Source: a virus. From it: a DNA stretch of 64,000 nucleotides. The DNA is taken from positions 58,744 through 122,743 of IMG/VR virus record IMGVR_UViG_3300033153_008400. The stretch is one strand, 5' to 3'. The notes beneath the pieces are model-generated. The model made no database searches. It had not been told where the DNA came from and saw only the letters and a program-made list of their open reading frames with translations. Below, piece after piece: positions 8,101 through 56,060 of the stretch. The first letter of the stretch is position 1, and each line of letters starts with the position of its first letter. The position numbers and the translations under genes were made by a program.

Positions 8101-11100
8101 AGATGATTCTGAGATATTAGAAGATGAAATCAAAAGACTTAAATTAATAACAGGTCTTATTAGAGGTGGTCATTTAGTGATTACTCCTACTCAAGCTGCT
8201 TTGGATAATGGAGAAAAACTGTTAGGTAGTACAGATGCTCTTATTACTATGTTAGCAAATACTATTTTACAGGAAGTAGCACCTCAAATTAAAAAAAATT
8301 GGTTCCTTGCTGATACTGATAAAGGATCAGAAAATTATAGTGATGCTGAATGGGAAGAAATACAAGCTAGATTTAATCCAGAAGGCGAAACATCTTCAAG
8401 AACTGAAGAAGATGATTATACTCGAATAATAGCTGAGAGACATCTTGAACCTTTCAAGGAAACAAATTGGGAAAAAGAAGCAGAATGGATGAAGAAAAAC
8501 TTTCCTCTTATTCCTATAAATGTACTTAAGAATGTTATTCAGGCAACTAATGGTAGACAAGCATGGGGTTTATATCGTCAAGGAGCTGTCTATATATATA
8601 AACATGCTGAGGCTGGTACAATTTATCATGAAGTATTTCATGCTGTGTGGGATATGTCTTTATCTCTTAGAGAGAAAAGACAAATTGCTGAAGAGTTTAG
8701 AAATAGAAAAGGTTCTTATACAGACAGATTTACTTTTAAAGTAATCAAATATAGCGAGGCTACTGATTATCAAATGGGTGAAGAGATAGCTGAAGAATTT
8801 AGAGATAGAGTACTTTATGGTAAAAAACCTACTAGAAAACCTAGGTCTTTAATGCGAAGAGCATTTGAGGGAATAATTAATTTCTTCAACGATCTTTTAT
8901 TCGGTAAAGATGCTTTTACTAATACGAACAAATTATTTGATAAGATGGGTAATGGCGATTATGCAGCCTTTATTCCACATGAAGATGTATTAAGAAAAGC
9001 AGGTGAGTCACAAATCTTGCATATTGAGGGTATAACAGTAAGAAAGGGTGATCAACTTAGACCACTTATAACTAGATTAGAAGGAATCAATGCTGTACAA
9101 GAACATGAGATTTATCAACATATGACATTTGTAGCTGTTAATAAGATGTTTGCCACAGACGATGGGTTGTTTGCTATGAAGGATAGATTGAAAATTACAA
9201 ATTTATATCAAGATCTTAAAAGAAATCTGTTAGGAGAAAATGGTATTATAAACAGAAAACAAATTGATTACAGTCAAATAACAATAAAAAATCCTAAGCA
9301 ACAAGAACAAGTTACTAAAAAAATTAAGGATTTAGATGATTTGAAGATAGCTATTAATGAGAATTGGGATGTCATTAAAAAAAGACATATGGATTCTTTA
9401 GCCCCATATGAGATTACATTTGATGAAGAAGAAAATTTAATCGTAGAGGATGAGACCATAGTGAAAGCAGATTCAATGGATGGTAACAAGATAGATTCAT
9501 ACAGAAAATCTAGTGGTGCTATTAAGTTGTTATTTGCTACTCTTGCAGATTTTGAGAAAGTTCCTGGAGAAAACAGAACAAGACTTAAAACATCTTCTAT
9601 AGGTGGTGCAACATTTGAGCAATCAGATAAGATATATATTACTTTAAAAAATAATTTACATGACTCTACTGGCTTAAATGATATGCTAGAAAGGTTGAAA
9701 GAATTAGCCAACAATGAAGAAACAGGTTATCATTATGCTAAATTATATACTAGAATAACTAAGCAAGACATTAGTGATACAAATAAAAATACTGTTAACA
9801 TTGATAAGATGAGTAACAGTGCCATAATGTTATTGGGAGGCTTTTGGAAAGTGATAAAAGGACAGAATCCAGATGTTCCTATCATATTCATTCTCCAAGG
9901 GGGAGAGGTTGTAATAGGAAATACAGAGTTATCAAATGCATCTAAACAGATAAGATATGAAATGTCTCAAAATATTATAGCACATATTAGAGAAGATGCT
10001 GAGGGTAATGAAAAACTTTATAAAATAAATTCTTTAGGGTTGTATAATCCTACTACAGCTTTAAAAAATGTAAAATTAAATAGTTCTAAACCTGCTGAAT
10101 ATATTAGATTTTTACAAGCATTCGGTATTAATTTTAAATTAAAAGAATTTAATAAATTTTTACCTGATCAAAAAGCTACATTTAGAGAAGCTACAGAAGG
10201 GTTACTTTCTGATCTTTCTACTAGAAAGGATATATATTCTTGGAGTGAGAAAGCAATAAACTCTACTCAAAATTTACTTAAATTAGGGGCACTCAGAGCT
10301 GTAATGGATAATCCTGTTTTTGAAAGTACTTATTTCAGTATAGCTGGAGAACGTACTCAAAAGTTCATAGGCCCTAATGCTACTAGTGATTTATTTCATA
10401 CTTTATCACAAATTACGAATAAACAAGATTTACGTTCAACACGTTATTCTCATTTATTGGATGATGTCTTTACCCAAGGGAGTGTAGTGATGCAGAAGTT
10501 ATTCAATGGGAACGAGCGTAAGAGAAATACGAAAGATATCTTTAAGACCGTATATGTAGGAGGAACTATAAATGAAGAGAATAATAGGAGAACACGATCA
10601 TCCAGACTTTATTATAGAGATAGATTGATTCAGGAAATGAGTCTAAATTTAGAAGGAATATATGCAAACTTAGTTCCTGGGGATTCTGAATTAGAATGGG
10701 CTATTAAGATGCATTCTAAGAAAAGCCCATTTATAACTCCATCTAGTGTTTCTCGAAAAGAGTATCAAAAAATATTCAGAGATTATTTTATTGATGAAGT
10801 TAACTTATCCAGAGACAATAGAATTGTAGCTAAAGGCAGAAGTGCCAGAGATTTGAGATTCTTTAAAGATATTTTAGATGCTTATAATTCTAAAGCTCAT
10901 GCTACTATACTTGATTACTCACATAAAATATCTGCAGAAGAAATATATGAAGAGCATAAGTCAGGGATTAAAGCTGCTGTAGAAGCTTTTATAACTAATG
11001 ATGCTGAGGAAACAATGACATTGTTGAAAGACTATAAAATTATACAAAAAATACCTGGTGAAGCTGAAATATATAAGCATACTCTTTCACTTAAGGATAA

Positions 11101-14100
11101 GGAATTATCTTTTACTGAAATGGAGCTTCAGATAAAGTCACTTACTGTTAACTATATGATAGCAAATATAGAACAACATAAGATATTATATTCTGATCCT
11201 TATCAGTATTCAGATGAATTAAAGCGTATTAAAAACTTTAACTCTCCTCGTCAGGCTCTTATGCATAGTTCTAAAGACCTTTATAAAGCGATTAATAAAG
11301 TTTATAATAAAGGATATAAAGCAGAAGATTTAGGTTATTCTAATATGGATCGTAGTTCTTTTAGAACAGTTACTCTTCAAGATATATGGTCAATAATAGA
11401 TCCTAAATTAGCTAAGCAATATCCAGGATATACTGATTATAAAAATAAAGAAGGTTGGCAAGAAACTGATGGTGCTGGTATGATTACTATGAAGGCATAT
11501 AGATTCTTCAGAATCTTGGCAGGTGATTGGTTACCTAATAATGAAGCACAATATCGTTGGGATATTCAATATCAGGAGAAGGTAATGGAGATAAATGATG
11601 CTACTGGAACTGAAAAATCCAGATTAAATGAAAAATTTAGAGCATTTAAAGCTGCTAGAAAGGTTCATGATCAAAGTACTTATACTCCTATTAAACCTAT
11701 TGTATCTGGTAATAAAGGAAATGGTAGAAATTATAATGATTCAGTATTAGATAAATATGCATTATTTCCAATGCCATTCAGAGTATTTCATATGATGGAA
11801 CCTAATTCTAATATTTTAGAGTTTACTGAAAAGATGCGTAGAGAAAAAATCGATTATGCTATTTATGAAACAGGTAGAAAAGTAGGTGTAGAAGAAACAT
11901 ATCCAGTATATGTGAAAGGTGCTTTAAATACTGCTCCTTTTCAACCTCAAGAAGAGATTGATAGAGTAGCTGAAAATAATCCTGAAGACAGAGTGAAGAG
12001 ATTTGTGACTAATATTCCTTTTTCTATTATGTCTTTACAAACTGAGGTTCCTTCTAAAAAAGATGGTAAAGTGATACAAGGTTCACAAATAACTAAGTTA
12101 GTTACTTTGGATTTCATGAATGGTGGTGTACCTATAGATTTTAATCCTGTGGATAAAGACGGTAATTCAATTGTCACGGAAGATAAGGATGGAAAGGATA
12201 CTACTGATTATGATGCATTAAGTGTTGCCTGGGTTGAATTAGAAACAGAAGCAGCTAAAAAAGAGGCTTCTCTATTGTATAAAGAAATTCAACATAATAA
12301 GCGATTATTACAAGAACGTATACAGCTAGGGTATGAAAATTTATTACGTAAATTAGGTATTATTGAAGATGAAGATGAAGATGGTAATAAGACATATACT
12401 GTTTTTGATAAAGAAAAACTCATAGGAACTATAGAAAAAGAAATATTCAAGCAACAGAAAAATAATAATTTAGTAGTTGCTTTTCAAGAAGTGAGAGAAG
12501 GAAAAGCTCTTATTGAAGCTACTCCTGTATATCAACAAATACGAAATGTTTTATATTCATTAGCTAATGGTAATGTAGTTCGTCCTAAAATAAGTGGAGG
12601 AAGTAAGATACAAATGCCTTCTACTTTATTTGAAGTAGGTGCTAGAATTGAAAAATTTGTTCATGATGGTAAAACATACCTTCATTCGGATGTATTGAAT
12701 TTTTATGAGGAAGGTAAAGTAGCTGAGATTTTTGTAGCTCGTTGGGATAATAGTCCTCTATCTGATGAACAATTATTAAATTCATGGTATAAATTAGATG
12801 AAAATGATAATAGAACATCTGAGTTAACTAAAGAAGGTGAACGTGCTTTAAAAGGTATAGCATTTAGAACTCCTACTCAGAAACAAAATTCTATAGAATC
12901 ATATGTTATTAAAAAATTCTTACCTAGGTCATATGGGGATTCAGTAGTTATTCCTTCAGCGATAGTACGAAAAACAGGTAGTGATTATGATATTGATAAA
13001 TTATCTGTATATCTTAAGAATCTAATTTGGGATGGTAAAAGACTTTTCTCAGTACCATTTCAAGGATTCCAAAGTGAATTAGATGCTAAAAGAGAATTCA
13101 AAAAGATTTTTCATAGATTAATGGAAAATAGAATTTCTAAAGTAGAAGGAAAAAAAGCTAAAGTTATTTCTTTGAAAGCTATGTTTACCAAGATAGCCAA
13201 TGGTACAGCAGAATTTGAAGAATTTGAAGAGTTTACTCCTATTATCAGTACACTTTTAGAAAATAACAATATTAGTCTTAAAGATACTGAAGCAATAAAT
13301 GAATATTTTGATCAACGTCTAGGTAATGGAATAGCACGTATCAATACTTTGACTGTTAAACAATTTGAAGAAGATGCTGCTCAAAAATTTGCTGATAAAT
13401 TATATAGTCAATCAATAGAGAATGAATACATTGAGTCTTTACAAAGACTGGTAATGCATCCTAAAAATTATCATAATCTGATTAAGCCTAATTCTGCTCA
13501 GATTATGAGAGACCTAACAGATCATATTAATGAAAAGTTTAGAAGAACTAAGATTGATTATCATTCTGCTGGATTTATGTTGAGTAGAAAGAAAATGTCT
13601 GGATTACGTCAAGCCTTTGTAGGTGGTAAGAGAGCTATTGGTATTGCTGCCGTTGGTGCAACCAATAATTCAAACAATCAATTAGCAGATACATATACTG
13701 ATACAAATCTTATAGGAACTAATATTATTTCTGATGAAGATGAGTTTTGGTTGAATGGTATGAAAATTACTAAGATTGCCGATGACACTGATGCCGATGT
13801 TAAGTTCTTAGAATATAATAAAAAGATGGTTGATGGCAGACCTATGGCATCTCTCTCCAGGGCTAAAAATTCAGCAGGTGAATATATCTCTGATATTATA
13901 GGAATGTTCATTGATGGTTATGTTGATATTTCTGCAGGACCTTGGATTATGCAAATGGGTGCAACTCCTGAAACAGCAGGGACATGGTTATATTTATTAA
14001 AGATAGGTGTACCTAAAGAAACAGTAGCTTATTTCATGAATCAACCTATTATTACTGAATTATTATTTGATTTAGAAATAGAAGGTAAATCATGGTTATA

Positions 14101-17100
14101 TAATAGAAACAGAATATTTGATCTTTTAAAATTATATGCAGGATCTAAAGCAAACATTGCTATGATTCCTTCTGAAAGAGGATTGGATACTATGATGGGT
14201 AAGAAAAGAGGAGAGTTATCTCTTCTTCAAAAGACTCAACAACAGTTTATTTTAAAAGAGTTTTTAAAATATTCTAAACAAGCAGACCATTTATTCCTAG
14301 TAACTCAAGGTACTAACTTTGATACAGCTACTTTAAATGATCCTTTCTTAATATTTAAAAAATCACGGTTATTTAAAATGGCTCAGAAGACTGTTATTTC
14401 TTCTGCTCAGAAAATTTTAGATACATCTTTCTTAGGTTATTTAAAAGATACTATGGATAAAATCAGAGGAGCATATTCTGTGATACTTCTGTCTGATAAA
14501 AATGACCCAAATAAAGCAATTACTCCTAGAAAAGTATTAGAACGAGTATTGTTACCATATATTAGAATGTCAGATAGAGAATTTGTAGGCCTGAGTCAAA
14601 AGGTTGTAGCAGATTTCTTTGATTGGGCAATGCAAACAGATAGAAGTATTAAAAGTAGTTTTAATTCTTTAATAGTTGAAATACTATTGGGAACTGATAC
14701 TGAAAGAAGTGCTGCTAAACAAATCATACAATTTAAAGAAGATATATTTGGTAGAGAGGCTGATGCAAATAAAGGCATATTAGCTATTGCTCCCAAGGAG
14801 AACCATCCTTTATATAATAATATGATTTTAAAATCTTTTGTATTAGTACCAGGTGCTAGAAAAAATGTTCCTGATAATCTTATTATTAAAGCTAAGGATA
14901 ACAAAGTATATGATCAGAACCAGACTATCAATAGTTTTGAAGAGATTAAGGATTATTTAAGTTCCTTAAAAGGTTCTAATAGTAAATATGCTGGGTTGTA
15001 TGAGAAGATGGTTAGATTAGCTGTAATACAATCAGGGCTTTCTACATCTCCTATATCTTTTTCTAAATTATTGCCTTATGAAGATTTTAAAGAAATATAT
15101 AATCATACATTACTTAATTTAGAAGCTAATCCTACTATAGAAAATTATGCTTCTCTTAATGTATTTGAAAGAAGTAATTGGAATAAAGGAAAATGGATAT
15201 CTACTATTACTAGAAAAGTAGATTATGATGAACATGATACACGTATTGTACGTACTGAAGATAATGTAGATTATAGACTTAGTTCTGCTGAAGATAAATT
15301 TGAGATACCTAAAGTAGTTTTTATTAGTGAAGGTAATCCAAATGCATCAGAAGTAATAGTATATAAATGGTCTATACCAATTACACAAGACGAGAGAATT
15401 AAAAGATCTAAAACAGGAAATACGAGTCATTTGAAATCTCAATTGATGAGAAAGGTATATTATGATAGAGGAGTTGAACCAATACCATTGATTCAAGTAC
15501 ATGATGAATTTAATCCTTACACAGGTAGAAATATTTCTTACAGAGGATTTGTATATGTAGCTATTAATGCTTGGGGAGACTCATTCAGAGGTAGAGAGTT
15601 TTATAATTCTGTTGATGGTACAAACGTTAAGGCTACTGTGCTAGATAATGGATTTGAAAAAGTAATAGAGGATCAAGATATAGTTGGAAATAAGATTTCC
15701 TCAGGAGAGGTAACTGATGAGAAAGTTATAGAAATATTAAGTCGTAAAATGTTAGTTGCTGGTAATAGAGTTACATCTGAGGACACTAAAATTACTCCGA
15801 GCAGTATCTATGAGACCTTAGGGGATAAAACAGCCTCCAGAAATGTAGTGATTGAAAATGTATTCCAAGCTACTGGTGTCAAGTTTGCTAAGTCTATTGG
15901 TGGTATATTTAGTATGAGACTTAAGGGTTCTGATAAACATTTCGGTAATCCATTCAGTTCTACTATAAAAGATAAGTCTTTAATAGCTACTAAGAGTACT
16001 AGAGAAAGTGTAGAAAGATATATTGATTGGATTATACGTGGAACTGATACTAGAGCGAAATGGATTAGAACACAACTTGAAACAGGAGATTTAAAAAGAA
16101 GACCTATTGTTTATTATAAGGAATTAGGAGAACCTTCTCATGCAACTGCATTAGATTATCTGATCAATCAAAAGGATTGGACTGAACCTAAGTTAACACG
16201 GGAAGAGAGTACAGAGCTTGAAGAGTTAAAAGCAAAACGCGAGACACTGGAAACCAACCCTGAATATATTGTATTAAACAGTATACCAAAGATAACTCCT
16301 GCATCTGCTAAAAAAGAGACAGGTGGTAAGGTAGGTATCAATCAGGACATCAATCCAAGCTGGTTATCTAAAGCTGGAGTAACTATTGAAAAGGCTGCAG
16401 AGAATATTTATGCTGATAATTTTTCAGAATCTAATGAATACTCTGAACAAGATATAAGAAACTATATAATAGGTGCATTATTAAAAAGTAAAGTAGAAGC
16501 CAAAAGAGAGATATTTGATGAAAAAAGATTAGATGAACTTTTAAACCCTGGTAATAAAGAGGATATATTATCTCAGACTGACGACATGAATGTTTCTGTA
16601 GCAACGTCCAATACCATTGAACGAATGAAAGCAGCGGCTGCATCCATGGGAATAAATTTGACCTCTCTTTTAAACTATGCTAAAGATAATCCTGATGTAG
16701 ATGTTACTAATGTTAATGGTATTGCCGATTTAACTCAAGGTATTATAGCCATTGCAGAAGGGAAAGAAGATGTAGCTATAACTGAGGAACTTATCCATAT
16801 CGGTAGTGCTATTGTAGAAGCAAATGATCCTAAAAGAATAACAGCATTGATCAGTAAGATTGCTGATTTTAAAATTTATAAAACAGTATTAGATGCCTAT
16901 AAAGGTAAGAAGGCTTATCAATTACCTAATGGTAAACCTGATATAAGGAAAATCAAGAAAGAAGCTATTGATAAATTAATGGCTGAAGTAGTTGTAAATG
17001 GTGCTAATGGTAGCACAGATTTTCCTGAACTCTCAGATCTGACTGTTGTAGGAAGAATCAAAGAGATGTGGAATAGTCTCTTGAGATATATACGTGGAGT

Positions 17101-20100
17101 ATATAGAGTATCAACAATAGATATTTTCAAAGAGACAGGTGAAATGATAGTAGAAGGTAACATTGGCACCGTAGATGACATTGTCTCCACAGGGGTATTT
17201 TCGCAAATGGCTACTGAAAACCAACCATTAAATGATTTATATAAAAGGCTCTTAGAAGAAGACAATCGATTAACATTATATGAGGAGAATGAGATACCAG
17301 GAAAGAAAAGACATTATACTTATGTTGATCCTATTACTGGAGAAACTGTAGATGTAGATTTTAGTGTTACTGAGGATATCAAACTTCAAAAAGAAAAAAC
17401 AGGAAAAACATTTGCTCCTAGATCTCCACAGAATAAAATGATTGATGCGTTCAAGATGAAATGGGGTAATTCAGGTCATAAATATTTAGAGGCTTGGTTA
17501 AAGATCAATTTAATAGATAAGGAAACAGGCTTTGCTAAGTCTATTCCTGGTACTGATCCAGTAGATAATTTTGGTTTAGAAGATGAAGTAACCCAAGAAT
17601 TAGAAAATTTTATTAAACAATTAGTAGATTCTTATCCTAAAGGAACTAAGTTCTTAGCAGAACCTATGGTAATTAATAAACAAAATCGTAATAGAACATT
17701 AGCATCTGCTATTGATTTTGTAGCATTAATTCCTGTTGAAAGGAACAATAAACCTGATGTTAAGATAGAAATGCTGGATTGGAAGTTTACTACAATACTT
17801 GAGTCGGACAAAGTTCCTGATATACCTTGGTACAGTCAAAGTACTTGGAAATCTCAAATGGGTGAGTATACTAAGATGTTGAGAGGTTATGGTATGAAAA
17901 ATTATCAATTACAAAAGGCTAGGATGATTCCTTTTATAATGACATATGGTGAAGATATTCCTGGTAGCCCATGGAGAGGACTATATGCTTCTCAAGTAGA
18001 GATAGGTGATGTAAATAGTTTGAAAGAAACTAATATTTACTTATTGCCTGTTCCTGTTAATATAGAGCCAACAGGTATAGCTGTTGTAGATAAATTACTA
18101 TTTGAATTAAATGCATATTATCAAAGAAATTATGCATATGATGGTAAGTTAAATGCTGATGAGCAAAAGGAAAAAGAAAAAAAATTAAATAATTTAAAAG
18201 TAGCTATTAGGAGATTGCATGTAGCTAGAGATTTTAAACCACTTGTAGGTGTAGCACAAAATTTTGTGAAAGCTGCTCAAACAGTTTTTGATAAGTTTGA
18301 TGTAATGGATTATGCAACTGAAGATCCTAAAGTAATTTCAACTTTATTACATGAATTATCTACATTGAAAAGAGACTCTTTTAGATTTGAAGGAATAAAC
18401 AGAATATTTTTAGAAACTTATAAAGATAAAGAATTTGATAAAGAAGAAAATAAAATCCTACAAGATTTAGGAGATGTTTCTGTAGAAATAGAGAAAATGC
18501 TAGTCAAAATTGTTGAACATCAGAATGAACGTGCTAAATATATCAATTTAAATTTATCATATACTACTGAAGAAGAAGGAGATAGTATTTTAACTCCATC
18601 AAGAGAGTTAAAAAGAATGGCAAAATTATTTAAGGAAGGTAGTAAACTTTCTAATAAACGTGCAAATGCTATAGCTGCTATAGTGCTTCAGGGAAAAAAT
18701 GAAGTAGAGTTGAGATTTAATAAAGAGATGTTTAAGTTTAACAGAATCTTTAAAAAATTATATGCTCAGGCAAATAGCAGAGGAGTGTCTTCGTTCAGTT
18801 TGATAGGTAAGATTGGTAAAGCAGGTGATACAAAAGAAGGTGCTGAAGATACTTTACAAATATATGATAAAGTTAAACCTAACTTTATGAAAGATCTTCA
18901 ACGGGCTAGAACAGATAGGGATAAAACTTTTATTACGACACACATTGATATGAAAGCGCATAATAAATATATCAATGCTGAAATGAAGAAACAAGAAGCA
19001 GAATTGAATGCTCATGTATTCAATCCAAATGATGAAGCAGATAATGATATATCTAAAACTGTGGCAATAGATAAAATGAGAAATTCATTAGATATCTACA
19101 GGACTACTTTTAATGGATGGAATTCTCATCATTTTTTAGAGTCAATGTTTGCTAATGTAAAAGAAAATGATCCTGAATATCAAACTCAGGAATATAAGGA
19201 TATGGCTAAGAACCAAGTTGCTTTAGATGCTTGGAATTATGTCAGAGAATGGGGTGACAGAGCTAAAGTTAATGGACATATTCCTCAATGGAAAGATGCA
19301 TTTTTCCCATTAATTGAGGCTGATTCTATGGCAAAGTTTATGCAGAGTAAGAAAGGAACCATAGCCAATATTAAGGAATATTTCTTAGATGCTATAACAG
19401 GTAGAATAGATGAAAGTAAAGGATATACTAATATTGATCCTGAAACAGGAGAAGCTAGAGAAAGTATTCCAGTATATTTTACAAGATCTAACAAAGATGT
19501 AGAATATATGACCCAGGATATTAGTAAAGCTGTTCCTATGTGGGTTCATTCTATCTTGGATTTTGAAGCTAGTTTAGCAATGGAAGCTGATCTTAATCTA
19601 ATGGTAGATGTAGAAGAAAATATAGGTGTGTTTATTGTAGATGCCAGAAGAAAAATTCAGAGAGTAGCTGGAGAACCACAAGTTACTAAGAGTAAGAATG
19701 CAAATATTGCTGTATTAAGAGGACAGGTAAGTGATGCTATTTATGGTCAAAGAGAAGATGTAGATGAATTAGGTAATGTAGAAATTACTGCTTTAGCTGC
19801 AAGACTTACTAAAATATTTGGTGGATCGGAAGAACAGATGGATCAAATAGCTACTGAGATCAGAATTAAAAAGATTTTAGAAGGAGCTAATAATTGGGTA
19901 AGGAATTTAGGTGTAGGTTTAAAACCTGCTATTGCTATAGCAAATGCAGCAGGACAAACAATGTTATCCTATATATACAAAAGTGGTGTTTACAGAGGTA
20001 GAGAATATGCAAAGAATACTACTAAGGTAATGTCCAATAATCTTTCTACTAAGGAAAGAGGGCTCTTGCATTTTATATCTGCTTTCTCTGAAAATAATCT

Positions 20101-21292
20101 TATATTACAAAGACGTTTAGCTAAGAATGGTTTTATGTCATATCTGAATACATGGTCTATGACAGATATCATACAATCTACTAACTCATATCCTGAAATA
20201 ATACTTCAGAGAATAAATGGTTTGAGTATGATGGAGAATACGATTGTTGTTGATGGTAAATTATTAAATGTTCGAGAGGTAGTATTAGCAGAAGACAGAG
20301 CAACAAAAGAAAAAGGTATTTCACAAGCGGCCCGTCGTGCATTAAATGATTCTTATGAAGATAGAGTAGCTGCACGTAAAGTTAGTGAAACACAATTAAT
20401 AGAAGTAGTAGAAGTAAGTGAAAAGGGTGTAGAATTTCCTGGAGTATCTATAGAAGAACTCGCTAAATTAAGAGTGAGAATAATGGAATATTCAAGAAAG
20501 TTGAATGGACAGATGGATGAAAATGATAAAGCTGCTTATAGAAGAAGTATTATCATGAATAGTTTTATGATGTTCAAACATTGGGTTCCTAAGTTACTTG
20601 AAGGCAGATTTCATGGGATTCATAAAAATTTACAATCTGATAATTGGGAATATGGTAGATCAAGATTGATGGCTAAAACGTTGCTTAAATTAGCAAGTAC
20701 CAGTATTTTAAAAATGTCTGATTTAATACATCAAACAGATGAAGGGAAGAAGATAATGGATCAAATGCTGGAAGAAAAAATGATTGCTCATTTTGATAAA
20801 ACTGGACAAGTTTTACAGATTACGAGAGAAGAATGGTATGATTTAATGAGGCAAGAGTTATCTCGACAAATGAGAGAACTTCAGATGGTATTAATGGTAT
20901 TTACAATATTGATGAGTATAAAGGCTGCAGAGCCACCAGAAAATATTAGTGCTGGAGATAGAAGTAGATTTAATTATTTATTAAGAGTACTTAATAAAGT
21001 AACAGATGAGATATTATTCTTCTATAATCCAACATCATTTGAAGGTATGACTACTGGTAGTATAATGCCTGCAGTAACACTATTATCAAAGGCAGGGAAA
21101 ATATTGAATGCAATTAGAAAAGCAACAGTTGCTGAAACTGAAAAAGAAAGGGAGAATGCGAATGTTGCTAAACATATTTTGAATATAGTACCAATAGGAT
21201 ATCAAGTATCAAAAACATTCATACCATTAATAGATGCTGAATTGGCTAAAGATATGGGTAATAGAATTTCACCAGAAACAAATAGAAGATAA
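2075..21292 (+). CDS. Giant virion RNA polymerase polyprotein (6405 aa)
   Basis: A single uninterrupted frame of 6405 codons. Visible parts in order: Pro-rich N-terminus; small hydrophobic Gly/Ala-rich segments (about residues 110-140 and 200-225) that could act in membranes; coiled coil at about 967-1133; a zincin-type site HEVFH at 2185-2189, followed by a possible third ligand in EEIAEEF; a barrel-like segment with ETGRKVG at 3265-3271; RTPT at 3598-3601 and DYDID at 3637-3641; a segment with KHFGNPF (4621-4627); a degenerate TEELIH (4903-4908); a RecB-like nuclease signature D5214...D5235-W-K5237; and a long helical C-terminus. The RTPT...DYDIDKLSVYL order mirrors bacterial beta' (RxPT...DFDGDxMxVH), the catalytic double-psi barrel that binds Mg2+. 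crAss-like phages carry such a polymerase in the virion and inject it for early transcription. Processing into smaller proteins is likely but not shown. Confidence 0.8.
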   Translation: MSNGKPNTITGSKSRRGENFINRKATVPNLPSTPTLPIVEPYNTGAPGVMTARDIWNQRLATGSYNKIAPLNTKEIYSGPRYNETIPGTDYEEMHAQQQSNWGKWSNATAKMIGTASTTFVTGTAGLLYGMGSALINLKLSNVVDNSVTRAMDDISRGMDDSLPNYYTQKETEAKWWSPDNIMTANFWSDKVLKNLGFSVGSMAGGMAWGALFRSIGMTNQLVRWGKGNDLATAVEKRLAVAPASARYPAFQSALNKTWTTAKMPMAAVAKNSDRILTSIMATAGEATIEGLQAMHTLRESLLDEFKLSHGRMPSGLELNAINETVQTAGLYIYGMNGLILTATNYIQLGKIIGSSRKADKALINSIRRNADTRLWEAALPKTIAGKVLGVAKHIGRLSFAPVEALEEGLQHAATTGVEDYFSRAYKNKNETNDLLRAVDDNMLNVYSNVYLHGLHETLNTKEGLESMLIGALSGGLQQMGLFGSYRDEKGKIKYGVGKSGEIGEYGLFGRGGTRGINTKRAVEELNLKQVEDVIKDGVNYMGVGIGSQKLRQQAIENDDILAEKDAEEDYALSYLMPRIKYGKLESVIEELTNYKTQAMSTTGYSELVTAGLANQNETADEFIQRIDNLLESANKTDKMYSLLNDRYENARSEDGTIAYTPEVIDKMVYAAAKIENYDKRIEEVQTALLSSGVDLTLIDEIIKNKDAIPTDAQWEEVSKTADNVKITEQETFSTNLLDYGELLLRRKKFAQEYETIKDAPYNYRAVVGALPPEESEEIKSTKENSITVPVTTGGEKTYNIDDTYYLGNVLADQIVSGADLSAPQMKILSMNEDGTIKIMTQNGKELDITAGELEQLKLGSVNKALKDNKKGEFYFDNWNTPFTFNFGDNGGFKKGRIIYNENDDKMHFVYVDASGNTRDIEVTNDQFGPKGENEAQIQREEGVNDFQGGVEARFLAAKDERKDKKHEDRLKVLGEFAEEMMVRQAELTKVINKRQENVARTKKILGLLQEDLLKNKDKRTKDAYTIAGQKILTNIKRTEKDLEALEKVERESSEELNDITATLVYVEDLIENIDTRATDYVNFIAEIKVDKVNLEELHKEVTTGIKDLKTLIQEVKDFIQTSKDVLNDLLLQLSGAFPNISSEGVFLDDIVTVEDYFTDLAPLIGGTESEESLAFAGVTLTGIQPKKAQLTKMEKELSNAKKALDKYDDGIIARGKVLAKFGERLIEWERAKEEEAILGTSSEISSDILDSQSKSSFENDHYKEGFEYKKLKAKNLVVTGGIAPEGSDGKPVGVYAKRAQAFGNIFHRLVQNGKEFRGRVVTIANEKHIMKGLTKHLAQPGTDPRFTIVLVVTNKKGVPVDEKGIPITDESKLLDEGIYQTFPDPKLRNSYGSLFRADVKFKERERITKIYEKWVEKTLGQSKLQPLQDISASFGLVDYIQKTDSKGKILPEATSMARSSINASGLITNIELGSGDVIKVATNNDTLTRGTVEISAPLGHVFLEAPGGYVKLYNQKNSEKQSELIYNVLLQVTKNILRDKHGKEADTQRLFEWLRSVVYWGQPMNFQTGERKEPSDGSVYYEVIGQGEGVASERKLRIGKTSRFDFTPTSLKDNKDAIIALLQNVWGNTHAPGVAKDMYDVAYHEITAVNKDGTTEGITWNSYQQFLLADIYPDGSPRNLDSIPLKTKVRPLVGKEDTNRHAIYFYLEDSSEYMQDAPVESIVKKTVPGKKEVSTPKYIFDGVVENIINLGTLGEAKVTLNLDEAVQEFHRREGKVFSSLEETQQFTFALLSKHIITIGLGTDVEANLVEAGGATDSSAQSNAQMLVVEMLSSQITEAANRTAAKSEPVPTLKSSITSVEDLIQDINDAFIYINSGKYKGDRKNEMTSVGDKLVKIFLTGLRKEGLVKAGTRRAPRADGSYDTMTINEDLKGKNIGNDWSAAKHFKEKLRTFFDTEIAELKSSTKITETTVRTEDKKWKLDGSPEVMTVGESKVTFTLKDQAVIDALRDDSEILEDEIKRLKLITGLIRGGHLVITPTQAALDNGEKLLGSTDALITMLANTILQEVAPQIKKNWFLADTDKGSENYSDAEWEEIQARFNPEGETSSRTEEDDYTRIIAERHLEPFKETNWEKEAEWMKKNFPLIPINVLKNVIQATNGRQAWGLYRQGAVYIYKHAEAGTIYHEVFHAVWDMSLSLREKRQIAEEFRNRKGSYTDRFTFKVIKYSEATDYQMGEEIAEEFRDRVLYGKKPTRKPRSLMRRAFEGIINFFNDLLFGKDAFTNTNKLFDKMGNGDYAAFIPHEDVLRKAGESQILHIEGITVRKGDQLRPLITRLEGINAVQEHEIYQHMTFVAVNKMFATDDGLFAMKDRLKITNLYQDLKRNLLGENGIINRKQIDYSQITIKNPKQQEQVTKKIKDLDDLKIAINENWDVIKKRHMDSLAPYEITFDEEENLIVEDETIVKADSMDGNKIDSYRKSSGAIKLLFATLADFEKVPGENRTRLKTSSIGGATFEQSDKIYITLKNNLHDSTGLNDMLERLKELANNEETGYHYAKLYTRITKQDISDTNKNTVNIDKMSNSAIMLLGGFWKVIKGQNPDVPIIFILQGGEVVIGNTELSNASKQIRYEMSQNIIAHIREDAEGNEKLYKINSLGLYNPTTALKNVKLNSSKPAEYIRFLQAFGINFKLKEFNKFLPDQKATFREATEGLLSDLSTRKDIYSWSEKAINSTQNLLKLGALRAVMDNPVFESTYFSIAGERTQKFIGPNATSDLFHTLSQITNKQDLRSTRYSHLLDDVFTQGSVVMQKLFNGNERKRNTKDIFKTVYVGGTINEENNRRTRSSRLYYRDRLIQEMSLNLEGIYANLVPGDSELEWAIKMHSKKSPFITPSSVSRKEYQKIFRDYFIDEVNLSRDNRIVAKGRSARDLRFFKDILDAYNSKAHATILDYSHKISAEEIYEEHKSGIKAAVEAFITNDAEETMTLLKDYKIIQKIPGEAEIYKHTLSLKDKELSFTEMELQIKSLTVNYMIANIEQHKILYSDPYQYSDELKRIKNFNSPRQALMHSSKDLYKAINKVYNKGYKAEDLGYSNMDRSSFRTVTLQDIWSIIDPKLAKQYPGYTDYKNKEGWQETDGAGMITMKAYRFFRILAGDWLPNNEAQYRWDIQYQEKVMEINDATGTEKSRLNEKFRAFKAARKVHDQSTYTPIKPIVSGNKGNGRNYNDSVLDKYALFPMPFRVFHMMEPNSNILEFTEKMRREKIDYAIYETGRKVGVEETYPVYVKGALNTAPFQPQEEIDRVAENNPEDRVKRFVTNIPFSIMSLQTEVPSKKDGKVIQGSQITKLVTLDFMNGGVPIDFNPVDKDGNSIVTEDKDGKDTTDYDALSVAWVELETEAAKKEASLLYKEIQHNKRLLQERIQLGYENLLRKLGIIEDEDEDGNKTYTVFDKEKLIGTIEKEIFKQQKNNNLVVAFQEVREGKALIEATPVYQQIRNVLYSLANGNVVRPKISGGSKIQMPSTLFEVGARIEKFVHDGKTYLHSDVLNFYEEGKVAEIFVARWDNSPLSDEQLLNSWYKLDENDNRTSELTKEGERALKGIAFRTPTQKQNSIESYVIKKFLPRSYGDSVVIPSAIVRKTGSDYDIDKLSVYLKNLIWDGKRLFSVPFQGFQSELDAKREFKKIFHRLMENRISKVEGKKAKVISLKAMFTKIANGTAEFEEFEEFTPIISTLLENNNISLKDTEAINEYFDQRLGNGIARINTLTVKQFEEDAAQKFADKLYSQSIENEYIESLQRLVMHPKNYHNLIKPNSAQIMRDLTDHINEKFRRTKIDYHSAGFMLSRKKMSGLRQAFVGGKRAIGIAAVGATNNSNNQLADTYTDTNLIGTNIISDEDEFWLNGMKITKIADDTDADVKFLEYNKKMVDGRPMASLSRAKNSAGEYISDIIGMFIDGYVDISAGPWIMQMGATPETAGTWLYLLKIGVPKETVAYFMNQPIITELLFDLEIEGKSWLYNRNRIFDLLKLYAGSKANIAMIPSERGLDTMMGKKRGELSLLQKTQQQFILKEFLKYSKQADHLFLVTQGTNFDTATLNDPFLIFKKSRLFKMAQKTVISSAQKILDTSFLGYLKDTMDKIRGAYSVILLSDKNDPNKAITPRKVLERVLLPYIRMSDREFVGLSQKVVADFFDWAMQTDRSIKSSFNSLIVEILLGTDTERSAAKQIIQFKEDIFGREADANKGILAIAPKENHPLYNNMILKSFVLVPGARKNVPDNLIIKAKDNKVYDQNQTINSFEEIKDYLSSLKGSNSKYAGLYEKMVRLAVIQSGLSTSPISFSKLLPYEDFKEIYNHTLLNLEANPTIENYASLNVFERSNWNKGKWISTITRKVDYDEHDTRIVRTEDNVDYRLSSAEDKFEIPKVVFISEGNPNASEVIVYKWSIPITQDERIKRSKTGNTSHLKSQLMRKVYYDRGVEPIPLIQVHDEFNPYTGRNISYRGFVYVAINAWGDSFRGREFYNSVDGTNVKATVLDNGFEKVIEDQDIVGNKISSGEVTDEKVIEILSRKMLVAGNRVTSEDTKITPSSIYETLGDKTASRNVVIENVFQATGVKFAKSIGGIFSMRLKGSDKHFGNPFSSTIKDKSLIATKSTRESVERYIDWIIRGTDTRAKWIRTQLETGDLKRRPIVYYKELGEPSHATALDYLINQKDWTEPKLTREESTELEELKAKRETLETNPEYIVLNSIPKITPASAKKETGGKVGINQDINPSWLSKAGVTIEKAAENIYADNFSESNEYSEQDIRNYIIGALLKSKVEAKREIFDEKRLDELLNPGNKEDILSQTDDMNVSVATSNTIERMKAAAASMGINLTSLLNYAKDNPDVDVTNVNGIADLTQGIIAIAEGKEDVAITEELIHIGSAIVEANDPKRITALISKIADFKIYKTVLDAYKGKKAYQLPNGKPDIRKIKKEAIDKLMAEVVVNGANGSTDFPELSDLTVVGRIKEMWNSLLRYIRGVYRVSTIDIFKETGEMIVEGNIGTVDDIVSTGVFSQMATENQPLNDLYKRLLEEDNRLTLYEENEIPGKKRHYTYVDPITGETVDVDFSVTEDIKLQKEKTGKTFAPRSPQNKMIDAFKMKWGNSGHKYLEAWLKINLIDKETGFAKSIPGTDPVDNFGLEDEVTQELENFIKQLVDSYPKGTKFLAEPMVINKQNRNRTLASAIDFVALIPVERNNKPDVKIEMLDWKFTTILESDKVPDIPWYSQSTWKSQMGEYTKMLRGYGMKNYQLQKARMIPFIMTYGEDIPGSPWRGLYASQVEIGDVNSLKETNIYLLPVPVNIEPTGIAVVDKLLFELNAYYQRNYAYDGKLNADEQKEKEKKLNNLKVAIRRLHVARDFKPLVGVAQNFVKAAQTVFDKFDVMDYATEDPKVISTLLHELSTLKRDSFRFEGINRIFLETYKDKEFDKEENKILQDLGDVSVEIEKMLVKIVEHQNERAKYINLNLSYTTEEEGDSILTPSRELKRMAKLFKEGSKLSNKRANAIAAIVLQGKNEVELRFNKEMFKFNRIFKKLYAQANSRGVSSFSLIGKIGKAGDTKEGAEDTLQIYDKVKPNFMKDLQRARTDRDKTFITTHIDMKAHNKYINAEMKKQEAELNAHVFNPNDEADNDISKTVAIDKMRNSLDIYRTTFNGWNSHHFLESMFANVKENDPEYQTQEYKDMAKNQVALDAWNYVREWGDRAKVNGHIPQWKDAFFPLIEADSMAKFMQSKKGTIANIKEYFLDAITGRIDESKGYTNIDPETGEARESIPVYFTRSNKDVEYMTQDISKAVPMWVHSILDFEASLAMEADLNLMVDVEENIGVFIVDARRKIQRVAGEPQVTKSKNANIAVLRGQVSDAIYGQREDVDELGNVEITALAARLTKIFGGSEEQMDQIATEIRIKKILEGANNWVRNLGVGLKPAIAIANAAGQTMLSYIYKSGVYRGREYAKNTTKVMSNNLSTKERGLLHFISAFSENNLILQRRLAKNGFMSYLNTWSMTDIIQSTNSYPEIILQRINGLSMMENTIVVDGKLLNVREVVLAEDRATKEKGISQAARRALNDSYEDRVAARKVSETQLIEVVEVSEKGVEFPGVSIEELAKLRVRIMEYSRKLNGQMDENDKAAYRRSIIMNSFMMFKHWVPKLLEGRFHGIHKNLQSDNWEYGRSRLMAKTLLKLASTSILKMSDLIHQTDEGKKIMDQMLEEKMIAHFDKTGQVLQITREEWYDLMRQELSRQMRELQMVLMVFTILMSIKAAEPPENISAGDRSRFNYLLRVLNKVTDEILFFYNPTSFEGMTTGSIMPAVTLLSKAGKILNAIRKATVAETEKERENANVAKHILNIVPIGYQVSKTFIPLIDAELAKDMGNRISPETNRR

Positions 21293-51925: not shown

Positions 51926-52399
51926 TTACCAATAGTATTTAATTCCTATATACGCACTATCACGCCATAGCTGTTCTACATCTGTTGCTCTTTGATGTTG
52001 TAATTGTATTGAGCCTTTTAACCAATCATTCAATGTATAATCAAATTCTAAATTAAACATATAACTGAAGGCATCTTGTGAATAACTAGTTTCATGATAA
52101 ATTTGTGAAACTGCTATTCCAGGCAATACATGTATTTTTTCAGTAAGGTATATTTCGTAGTCAAATTTACCAAATACCCACTGTTGATATCCTAAATAGT
52201 TAAAAGCTTCATATTCCATTCCATACCAGAATACATCTTGAAATGTATCACTAATACCTATTTTCCAATTCAATGCTTTAGGATTTACATCACTACCCCA
52301 AAAAGCATTGACTCCATCTACGCGAAGTGAAATCTGTTGTCCCCACAATAGAAAGTTACTTAGGATGATGAAGGTCAATGCTAATATTAATTTTTTCAT
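51926..52399 (-). CDS. Secreted outer-membrane-barrel-like protein
   Basis: A 157-residue protein with an N-terminal signal peptide (MKKLILALTFIILSNFLLWG, cleavage about residue 20). The mature part alternates strands with aromatic residues (FWYGMEYEAFNYLGYQQWVF; WLKGSIQLQH) and ends AYIGIKYYW, with an aromatic last residue as in outer-membrane beta-barrels of Gram-negatives. This is unusual in a replication arm. A phage-encoded outer-membrane protein could block superinfection or alter the surface. It is preceded by a four-gene block of unknown small genes. Confidence 0.65.
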   Translation of the reverse strand: MKKLILALTFIILSNFLLWGQQISLRVDGVNAFWGSDVNPKALNWKIGISDTFQDVFWYGMEYEAFNYLGYQQWVFGKFDYEIYLTEKIHVLPGIAVSQIYHETSYSQDAFSYMFNLEFDYTLNDWLKGSIQLQHQRATDVEQLWRDSAYIGIKYYW

Positions 52400-52904: not shown

Positions 52905-53579
52905 TTATAATTTATTTAAATTAATAAAGTCCAATGCTCCTATTACACGATAATGAAGCGTTCTTTGTTTTCTAAGAGCATCAGTCATCATATATCGTTG
53001 AGGTGTCCATACATCTTTGTATAGATATCCTTTATCCTTTGGTTTAGGAGGAATACACATTACTTTATTAACATAAAGATGATATCTCTGCCATATCCAA
53101 TTTCTAGTGAAACCAAATGGTACATCAGATGCTCTGTTCACTCCTTTAGGAGCCTTAACATCAAATACTGATATCCATTTATCATCAATGAATTGTGCCT
53201 TAAAATAACAATCCCCTTTCTCGAAGAGATCATTGAATAATGCATTCTTTACATTAGGGTTCCAAATAATGACTCCATCTGGAGTATACTTAGTAGTCCC
53301 AAGGAGTCTCTCATTGTGATAGTATCTCTTTTCAGTTTCTCTAATTGTTCCTTCATAAATAATTTTGTCTTCATACCACTGATAAGTTAAGCCATCAAAA
53401 AGCTGGAAAGTCTCCATCTTCTCCTCAGGGACATATTCAAGAATAATTCCCAAGGCAAGAGCTTCAGCTACCCACAGTAACCAAAACTCTTCCTGAGTAG
53501 GATTATCTAACCTTTCCATATGATATTGAAGATTGAAATAGTCACTATATTTTTTCATATAGTCTATAGTACTAATCAT
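52905..53579 (-). CDS. Unknown protein, possible PD-(D/E)XK-type nuclease fold
   Basis: A 224-residue protein. The region DGVIIWNPNVKNALF followed by QFIDDKWISVFDVKAPKG could be a PD-(D/E)XK-type core (D...D-x-K in VFDVK). Before it there are strands (YYHNERLLGTTKYTPDG) and after it basic helices (WTPQRYMMTDALRKQRTL). This is a tentative reading, and I do not claim activity. It starts 5 bases after the Tad2-like gene's end. Confidence 0.4.
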   Translation of the reverse strand: MISTIDYMKKYSDYFNLQYHMERLDNPTQEEFWLLWVAEALALGIILEYVPEEKMETFQLFDGLTYQWYEDKIIYEGTIRETEKRYYHNERLLGTTKYTPDGVIIWNPNVKNALFNDLFEKGDCYFKAQFIDDKWISVFDVKAPKGVNRASDVPFGFTRNWIWQRYHLYVNKVMCIPPKPKDKGYLYKDVWTPQRYMMTDALRKQRTLHYRVIGALDFINLNKL

Positions 53580-53584
53580 AAATA

Positions 53585-54145
53585 TTAGTCAAGAATTACC
53601 CAATCATTATTACAAGTATCATTTACGCTAGGTGCCCAAGCATAAACAGTATTATCTGGATATACTATACACATTTGATTTCGATAACGAATATTATTAA
53701 ATAAGATAGGATCAAACCCTTCTTTAGGTGCTTTATTTCTTCTTATGAATTCATCCTTTACAGATTGAGGTAAACTTTGCATATTTGGTACAATTACCAT
53801 ATCAATATCGGCATGTACTTGTTTAAATACAAATAATCCTTTACCATTCCATCCTACGCGTTGTACTCTTTTTCCTTCTTGCAGAGCAATTATTGCATCA
53901 CCAAATGTACATCCTCCATCAAATTCTCTATAAGCTTTATCAAATACATGTTTAGGTGACATAGAAATATAACCTTTGTGATTAGAATGATTACGTTCTG
54001 ATTTAGGGTCTTCAGGATATTCTATTAAATATACTTTTTCATTCGGGTCTTCATCTTCAGGTATATCCCATCCTCTGTAATTACAATACTCTTTTTTTGT
54101 CATAGGCTTAGCCTTAATGATCTTTGTTCCAATGTAAGTTTTCAT
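53585..54145 (-). CDS. Tad2-like (DUF2829) protein, putative anti-Thoeris
   Basis: A 186-residue, two-part protein. Residues 1-75 form a widespread phage N-terminal domain (GTKIIKAKPMTKKEY, RGWDIPEDEDPNEK, GYISMSPKHVFDKAY). Residues 78-186 match DUF2829: TFGDAIIALQEGKRVQRVGW, GKGLFVFKQV, a middle insertion with QSLPQSVKDEFIRRN, and the diagnostic end VYAWAPSVNDTCNNDWVILD. DUF2829 proteins include Tad2, which binds the signalling nucleotide of the Thoeris defence and blocks it. It may therefore protect the phage from Thoeris-like systems in its Bacteroidetes host. The role is inferred from family; ligand-binding residues were not confirmed. Confidence 0.8.
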   Translation of the reverse strand: MKTYIGTKIIKAKPMTKKEYCNYRGWDIPEDEDPNEKVYLIEYPEDPKSERNHSNHKGYISMSPKHVFDKAYREFDGGCTFGDAIIALQEGKRVQRVGWNGKGLFVFKQVHADIDMVIVPNMQSLPQSVKDEFIRRNKAPKEGFDPILFNNIRYRNQMCIVYPDNTVYAWAPSVNDTCNNDWVILD

Positions 54146-54794: not shown

Positions 54795-56060
54795 TTATGC
54801 TACGTTTTGTTGTATTTGTTTATCTATTGATCTAAATAAGGCTATCCCTACTTTCACTTCTACAGAATTTCCAATATGTTTCTTCTGTTCAGTTTGTGTT
54901 CCTTCTAAGATGTACCAAGAGGGAAATCCTTGAATTTTTAACATTTCTTCCACCGTAAGTGGTCTCACTAAAATATCTGATATAGAAAATTTCTTACAAA
55001 ACTCTTTAATGAGTATCATAAATTTATCATCTGTATCTTCTATTTCAGGTATATTAGTCCCATGCTTATACATAGTAATTCCCATAGGAGCTTTATCCTG
55101 ACGAGCTATTAATGTAGCACTAGGCTTTTCAAAGCTTCTGTTGCTTCCACCATATTGTGGATTATGCATAAAACCATTTAGTTTTAAATGAACTAGAGAT
55201 ATTCTATCTTTAGTTGTTAATGTCGCACTGGGCTCATTCACATCTTGATGACCATCTTGTCCATAGTATTTTATCCCAAAATTAGTTCCTTTTTTAGGGC
55301 CAAATTTGTTCAAACCTTTATATATTCGCCTATGTGTTGCTTCTACAAAAGGTTTCTTTCTATCAAATATAGATTTACCTATATTGTCAAGATCTAAAAC
55401 TTCTTTTACAGCTCTCCACTTACGATGAGTAATTCCACACTTAGAGTGTGTCTGAGGTGGATTACCAATATCTTTATAATTCTTAGCAAATTGAAGAAAG
55501 AGTCTTTTCCTAATCGTTACCCCTCCATAGTCAGCAGATATCAGATTCTCATCAAAGTACAAGTGACTAAAGTATCTTCTACCTAAAGTCTTAACCCAAG
55601 CATCATATGAAGTACCTTTCATAACTCCCACAGGATTACCACAGGAGTCTAATGGACCCCATTCTCTGAACTCCTCAACGTTTTCTACCCAGAAGAAGTC
55701 TGGGTTGATACCATCAAGGTATCTGAACATATCTTCAGCTAAAGTTCGGCTATCGGCATCCTTAGGTCCACATTTAGCTTTACTAAAGTTAGTACACTCT
55801 AATGATGCCCATATAGCTATCTTACAATCAGGATACAATCCTCTTAATCTTCTTACCTCTTCTATGAGTGGTGTTAAATCAAATGTTCTGATATCTTCTG
55901 TAGAATGAATGCAATAAGGATAATTCGCGGCGTGTGAACGCAATGCAGTGTCATCATGATTGATACACCATATAACTTCTATATTTGTTCTGCTTTCAAA
56001 GATCGCAGTAGAAGTTCCTCCTGCTCCTGCAAAAAGATCTATTACATAGGTCTTAATCAT
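54795..56060 (-). CDS. DNA cytosine-C5 methyltransferase
   Basis: A 421-residue enzyme with the ordered C5 motifs: I is DLFAGAGGTSTAI (residues 8-20); IV is ASLECTNFSKAK with catalytic Cys89 (PCQ in most enzymes is ECT here); VI is FFWVENVEEF (ENV, 126-128); VIII is GVTIRKRLFLQF; IX/X is RPLTVEEMLKIQGFP and KKHIGNSVE. It probably methylates C5 of cytosine at a short site, protecting phage DNA from host restriction. No linked restriction endonuclease is seen. It overlaps the YegP-like gene by 8 bases. The ECT form of motif IV is unusual. Confidence 0.9.
   Translation of the reverse strand: MIKTYVIDLFAGAGGTSTAIFESRTNIEVIWCINHDDTALRSHAANYPYCIHSTEDIRTFDLTPLIEEVRRLRGLYPDCKIAIWASLECTNFSKAKCGPKDADSRTLAEDMFRYLDGINPDFFWVENVEEFREWGPLDSCGNPVGVMKGTSYDAWVKTLGRRYFSHLYFDENLISADYGGVTIRKRLFLQFAKNYKDIGNPPQTHSKCGITHRKWRAVKEVLDLDNIGKSIFDRKKPFVEATHRRIYKGLNKFGPKKGTNFGIKYYGQDGHQDVNEPSATLTTKDRISLVHLKLNGFMHNPQYGGSNRSFEKPSATLIARQDKAPMGITMYKHGTNIPEIEDTDDKFMILIKEFCKKFSISDILVRPLTVEEMLKIQGFPSWYILEGTQTEQKKHIGNSVEVKVGIALFRSIDKQIQQNVA

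Follow-up and report, generated by a model that had tools for sequence, protein, structure and literature searches.

The gene at 53585..54145 (minus strand) of a 64,000-nucleotide stretch of viral DNA, hereafter the window, which belongs to a 122,743-base virus record, had been predicted to encode an anti-Thoeris Tad2 protein with an extra N-terminal domain, and it raises the question of what such a domain contributes to a protein that sequesters immune signals. The ORF was intact, with an ATG start, and encoded 186 aa. As for its carrier, the DNA polymerase I was nearest, at about 29-30% identity, to those of crAss-like Bacteroides phages, and a single ORF of 6405 aa, comparable in size, in our estimation, to the fused RNA polymerase proteins that crAss-like phages encode, spanned positions 2075-21292 (plus strand) of the window; on these two grounds, the phage is probably crAss-like with a Bacteroidota host.

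The full-length protein matched phrog_872 (E 1.6e-43) and 132 phage records, 61 of which covered at least 80% of the query, and was, in a full-length alignment, about 42-45% identical to BS-TP2 gp72 and N4 gp49. Phage N4 gp49 is one of the records sharing the N-module-Tad2 architecture, as do many DUF2829 proteins; the N-terminal domain thus does occur on other phage proteins, as the original prediction held, and because the architecture is common in phrog_872 and the phage records, the fusion as such is no discovery. The AlphaFold model of the whole protein, built from 35 homologues, reached a mean pLDDT of 89 and a pTM of 0.66. Judging from sequence and model together, the protein is a new member of the known Tad2 family. 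Our main reading, to which we assign a probability of roughly 0.75, is that it acts as a Tad2-family sponge carrying, as its N-terminal module, a portable accessory domain of signal interception.

The Tad2 domain and its predicted ligands

Residues 80-184 (53594..53908, minus strand) matched PF11195 (Tad2-like) with an E value of 8e-15 and 55.6 bits against the Pfam cut-off of 25. A sequence search of the PDB returned Tad2 proteins only, namely SptTad2 (E 5e-13), HgmTad2/AcrIIA7 (1.3e-12), ModTad2 (4.7e-11), and SPO1 Tad2 (1.8e-8), and all 24 fold matches of the whole-protein model to the PDB at E <= 0.001 were likewise Tad2, each over about 110 columns. The best fold matches of the domain were SptTad2 and HgmTad2, and foldseek gave E values of 6e-10 for 8wjd (TM by target 0.78) and 1.2e-8 for 8kbi. 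The fold prediction that had been proposed as a check thus gave confident matches to Tad2 only. Of the Tad1 layout, an N-terminal beta-sheet with an Acb2-like helical hairpin, no sign was seen: Pfam found no PF24729 match in the protein, and the profile of its N-terminal module retrieved no Tad1 chain from the PDB.

Both pocket elements, whose absence had been named as grounds for abandoning the Tad2 assignment, were conserved at the sequence level when the pocket-forming elements were taken as described in a review (PMC12043709). The first, a loop of the form R-x-GWNGKG-LFVF (residues 96-107; 53825..53860, minus strand), was located by aligning the protein with Tad2 proteins of solved structure and with homologues; its RxGWNGKG motif is common to SptTad2, HgmTad2, ModTad2, and the window protein, and R96, G98, and W99 were invariant among the 35 homologues. 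The second, WAPSVNDTCNNDW (residues 170-182; 53600..53638, minus strand), was recognized from conservation among the homologues, at least 90% of which retained W170, S173, D176, D181, and W182. Set against the solved Tad2 proteins and the 35 homologues, the predicted pocket elements RxGWNGKG and WxxSxxDxxxxDW therefore both appeared to be present, although the open literature yielded no Tad2 contact residues usable for comparison. Sequence, fold, and conserved pocket loops together bear out the C-terminal Tad2 (DUF2829) domain.

An insertion at about residues 109-150 (..IVPNMQSLPQSVKDEF..; 53696..53821, minus strand) lies between the two Tad2 halves, at the b2-b5 position, and could be aligned with that of HgmTad2 and SptTad2, with which it shares an SLPxSxK motif. 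These two proteins resemble the window protein in the Tad2 fold, the GWNGKG loop, the WxxSxxD..DW element, and the placement of the insertion; the insertion of the window protein, however, is the longer, and their matched solved chains (101-104 aa) lack the N-module that the window protein has. In its WAPS element the window protein resembles ModTad2, a His-ADPR sponge solved with hisADPR, rather than HgmTad2 or SptTad2; ModTad2 has the same fold and the W-x-PS-V-x-D element, whereas it is a short domain without the insertion. The insertion of HgmTad2 and SptTad2 has been reported to hold cyclic dinucleotides at a site separate from the ADP-ribose pocket (PMC12043709), and that of the window protein is, by alignment and analogy, its putative counterpart. 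Since the insertion also points to the cyclic dinucleotides of CBASS, a ligand range confined to Thoeris, as originally proposed, is probably too narrow.

It is established for the family that Tad2 tetramers hold Thoeris signals so that the effectors stay off (PMC12043709, PMC11722364). By analogy, we infer that the C-terminal domain would most likely form a tetramer, as in known Tad2 proteins, that a Thoeris signal of the ADP-ribose type would be bound in its predicted pocket, which the GWNGKG loop forms together with the WxxSxxD...DW element, and that the insertion may bind cyclic dinucleotides of CBASS as well. With these signals held, host effectors would be kept from triggering abortive infection.

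The N-terminal module and its fusion partners

Residues 1-76 (53918..54145, minus strand) constitute an unnamed module, evident from an AlphaFold model, from fold matches among viral proteins, and from a pattern scan. Modeled in isolation from 72 sequences, it formed a compact b-b-a-b-b-a domain (pLDDT 96.4, pTM 0.82). Pfam had no match within the first 77 residues, NCBIfam offered nothing of use, and the open-access literature searched, subscription papers lying outside the search, yielded no description or function of it. A search of PDB sequences found no chain, Tad1 included, even by profile, and the model had no PDB fold match at E <= 0.001, so that a ligand or partner is not readable from the structure. 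These two results also led us to reject the idea that the module is the beta domain of Tad1 and the protein a Tad1-Tad2 chimera, which is further countered by Tad1 fusions in which the module precedes a complete Tad1.

Among predicted viral structures, the significant matches of the module were N-module proteins, including a Tad2 fusion, and a RyR-fusion protein, the 'Ryanodine receptor Ryr domain-containing protein' of Yersinia phage TG1. Invariant or near-invariant positions were K8, M15, Y20, R24, G25, W26, P29, E32, Y43, Y59, F68, and Y72, together with an S-W/M-S-P-K stretch (SWSPK), and among the matches listed, 551 of 599 pattern-matching viral stretches encoded a module relative. In one locus (L332), a different N-terminal domain, ending in 'DGYxSxSPAxAFEEGY' and belonging to a GYxSxSPAxAFEEGY family, was fused to Tad2; domains of this type aligned with the module over 28 columns at a probability of 89%, and the L332 domain, possibly with phrog_1761-type proteins, may be remotely related to it.

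The partners of the module were surveyed in a viral sample drawn from three contig scans with different module alignments, an initial protein scan, and a small number of phage records, comprising at least 150 non-redundant viral proteins that carry the module. Among the matches listed (150 proteins; Pfam E <= 0.001), the partners were Tad2-like in 108, crAss001_48 (PF21825) in 25, and Phage_gp49_66 and Acb2_Tad1_hairpin in 6 each; no fifth Pfam partner family was found among these proteins at that threshold. Phage_gp49_66 (PF13876) corresponds to Acb4, a family of sponges for 3'3'-cGAMP (PMC11722364). The PF24729 group included the module fused to a complete Tad1 (solved Tad1 8kbb, E 1.5e-16) as well as, in L025, the module with an Acb2/Tad1 hairpin in the absence of a complete Tad1. 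The TG1 protein joins the module (28.9 bits by the module profile) to RyR (PF02026, E 3.9e-10), and a protein 95-97% identical to it occurs in Pectobacterium phages; RyR corresponds to the RyDEP family, for which degradation or sequestration of cADPR signals has been demonstrated (PMC13232231). Tad2, Tad1, the Acb2/Tad1 hairpin, Acb4, and RyR are thus five partner families holding tested anti-signal proteins. Some members of Acb4, Tad1, the Acb2/Tad1 hairpin, and RyDEP carry the same N-module; as unrelated sponge or enzyme domains, they have only this module in common with the window protein.

As to the second commonest partner among the matches listed, a simple equation of the crAss001_48 hairpin with Acb2/Tad1 was unsupported; since profile-profile comparison showed no similarity to Tad1/Acb2, a sponge function of crAss001_48 is a prediction from fusion only. 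Two small partners without a Pfam match, a 'YAWSWHCN' domain (L014, L044) and an 'LPEKLQ' domain (L015), were also found.

Several proteins combined the module with more than one such domain or in a different order. A module-hairpin-Tad2 double fusion was present in L037, module-Tad2-hairpin in L173 and L240, and module-hairpin-Acb4 in L176 and L178; the arrangement Acb4-module-hairpin occurred in Stenotrophomonas phage Philippe and Pseudomonas phage CL, Acb4-module in Rhizobium phage X2_28B, and module-Acb4 in CrAssphage ZA. In loci L263 and L265, too, one protein unites the module with two domains of different kinds, signal binders or hairpins. Module-hairpin-Tad2 triple fusions were further seen in L303, L306, L307, L310, L312-L315, L329, L330, and L333, and such fusions look common among the insertion-type Tad2 proteins of the sample.

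A separate collection, holding one genome per bacterial or archaeal species, served as a control, with the other ORFs of at least 80 aa inside the same 5-kb loci as the comparison set. A Tad2-, Acb4-, Tad1-, or crAss001_48-type domain was present in 46 of 53 module ORFs as against 9 of 573 other ORFs (Fisher P 6e-53, to be read as an indication only, as the viral sample had served to train the partner profiles and the records are interrelated; the contrast itself does not depend on P). The hosts in this sample belonged to several phyla. Conversely, the module is optional for Tad2, since 22 of 67 distinct insertion-type Tad2 frames carried it, while 34 had fewer than 45 aa upstream and 11 had another or an uncertain extension.

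Gene neighborhood and domain exchange

In the window, the fusion gene is accompanied by small unannotated genes and a C5 cytosine methyltransferase gene upstream (54795..56060, minus strand; PF00145, E 4.9e-25), which we used as a syntenic flank marker. The downstream neighbor (52905..53579, minus strand) encodes a 224-aa protein of no known family, for which neither Pfam nor a set of 50,697 phage records gave a match; by eye, its 'DVKAPKG' stretch might be a PD-(D/E)XK-like motif. The 157-aa product of 51926-52399 (minus strand) has a signal-peptide-like start, a beta-rich composition, and an aromatic ending, as noted earlier, and matched nothing in Pfam, PHROGs, or the phage records. Across the 122.7-kb record, a search for a second sponge family, with a positive control on relatives that covered PF13876 only, found none. 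The counter-defense island proposed for this locus is weakly supported within the window, where the neighbors are the small unannotated genes and the methyltransferase; in relatives, however, an Acb4-family gene does adjoin the module gene.

A related locus (L001) keeps the gene order of the window, with 86% identity in the methyltransferase, 70% in the module, and 82% in the downstream 224-aa gene. Its Tad2 domain is only 36% identical and belongs to the short type resembling ModTad2 (E 9e-32 to ModTad2), so that the same N-module stands ahead of a ModTad2-type domain. In L001 an Acb4 gene sits between the N-module gene and the homologue of the 224-aa gene, and in L002, too, an Acb4 gene directly follows the module gene. 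In phage N4, gp49 has the N-module-Tad2 architecture of the window protein, as do other phrog_872/DUF2829 proteins, but lacks the full insertion, and it is preceded by the Acb4-family gp48 (PF13876, E 8.8e-35), a family not found in the record of the window.

Modules 68-80% identical to that of the window came with hairpins in place of Tad2 in L002, L003, and L005. In L005, a standalone insertion-type Tad2 gene (4956-5837) lies directly ahead of the module-hairpin gene, and parts of the triple fusions thus also occur as adjoining genes. A tree of the 150 listed modules required at least 34 partner changes, compared with 43.5 for shuffled labels, a rough count given that the tree is built on 72 residues and poorly resolved. 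On this sequence evidence, partner switching is frequent, yet not random.

Possible roles of the module

Besides the fusions, the module occurs on its own, in at least about seven complete ORFs of about 73-85 aa and in gp72 of Erwinia phage MIF8, and within fusions it may be N-terminal, central, or C-terminal. Because it can stand by itself, takes any position, and accompanies binders of differing assembly, we infer that this portable domain, which phages attach to numerous nucleotide-signal binders unrelated to one another, most likely takes part in intercepting signals through an activity of its own, be it nucleotide binding or docking on a defense component. We putatively rank such an activity first, docking as nearly as likely, and a pure scaffold as less likely. 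The more far-reaching reading, that the N-module is an undescribed immune-evasion domain (a nucleotide sponge or docking domain) combined with all five families examined, namely Tad1, Tad2, the Acb2/Tad1 hairpin, Acb4, and RyDEP, and that its crAss001_48 (PF21825), 'YAWSWHCN', and 'LPEKLQ' partners are unrecognized signal-binder families, stands for us at about even odds.

Alternatively, the module could act as an adaptor for targeting, tethering the sponge to an enzyme or effector of the host (TIR, CD-NTase) or to a structure of the phage. Its portability across unrelated binders would suit such a role, as would its conserved aromatic and charged residues (K8, Y20, R24, W26, E32, Y43, Y59, SWSPK, F68, and Y72), which might form an interface; the hosts, however, lie in several phyla, and a single host target would need very wide conservation; we rate an adaptor function as less likely than not. 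Somewhat more doubtful is a scaffold for oligomerization or stability, devoid of a ligand and raising the local number of sponge sites. The characterized sponges all act as oligomers whose pockets lie where protomers meet (PMC11722364), and the module is compact and stands ahead of the sponge domain in most of the listed proteins, but the partner assemblies differ in symmetry (tetramers for Tad2 and Acb4, hexamers for Tad1 and Acb2), and neither the variable position nor the complete standalone modules fit a scaffold well. Oligomerization, which the original prediction had considered for the N-terminal domain, is hence less likely as its main role.

It is very unlikely that the Tad2 domain has lost binding, leaving the gene as a remnant or in the service of phage metabolism: a few positions depart from the family consensus, among them TCNN in place of xLAE ahead of the final DW, yet the frame is open, the pocket loops are conserved, and at this position L001 retains an intact gene whose Tad2 domain is a different one. 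A Cas9 inhibitor, as homologues in several phage records are annotated ('anti-CRISPR protein') and as the closest solved chains, including AcrIIA7 or 'Inhibitor of Type II CRISPR-Cas system' deposits, might suggest, is highly improbable, because the AcrIIA7 protein goes by HgmTad2 in a second PDB entry and has been solved in complex with 1',2'-cADPR and cGG, and the conserved positions all track Tad2, the AcrIIA7 name being shared with HgmTad2 chains only.

Returning to the module as an accessory domain of signal interception, published assays appear to have set it aside: the RyDEP study purified 'R12-like domains' only, one of them from a Pectobacterium phage (PMC13232231), and the Acb4 study mentions 'additional extensions' that it leaves unexplained (PMC11722364), from which we consider that the part of the module in specificity or affinity has probably gone unmeasured. 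Tad2 itself being a known family, the interest of the locus lies in a module that joins Tad1, Tad2, the Acb2/Tad1 hairpin, Acb4, and RyDEP. Should the module prove a marker of signal sponges, looking for fusions to it would offer a direct route to new ones, and PF21825, the second commonest of the listed partners, as well as the two smaller domains would become candidate signal binders. Given that proteins combining the module with Tad2 and a hairpin, or Acb4 with the module and a hairpin, exist, phages would, if this holds true, build multi-signal sponges from interchangeable parts.
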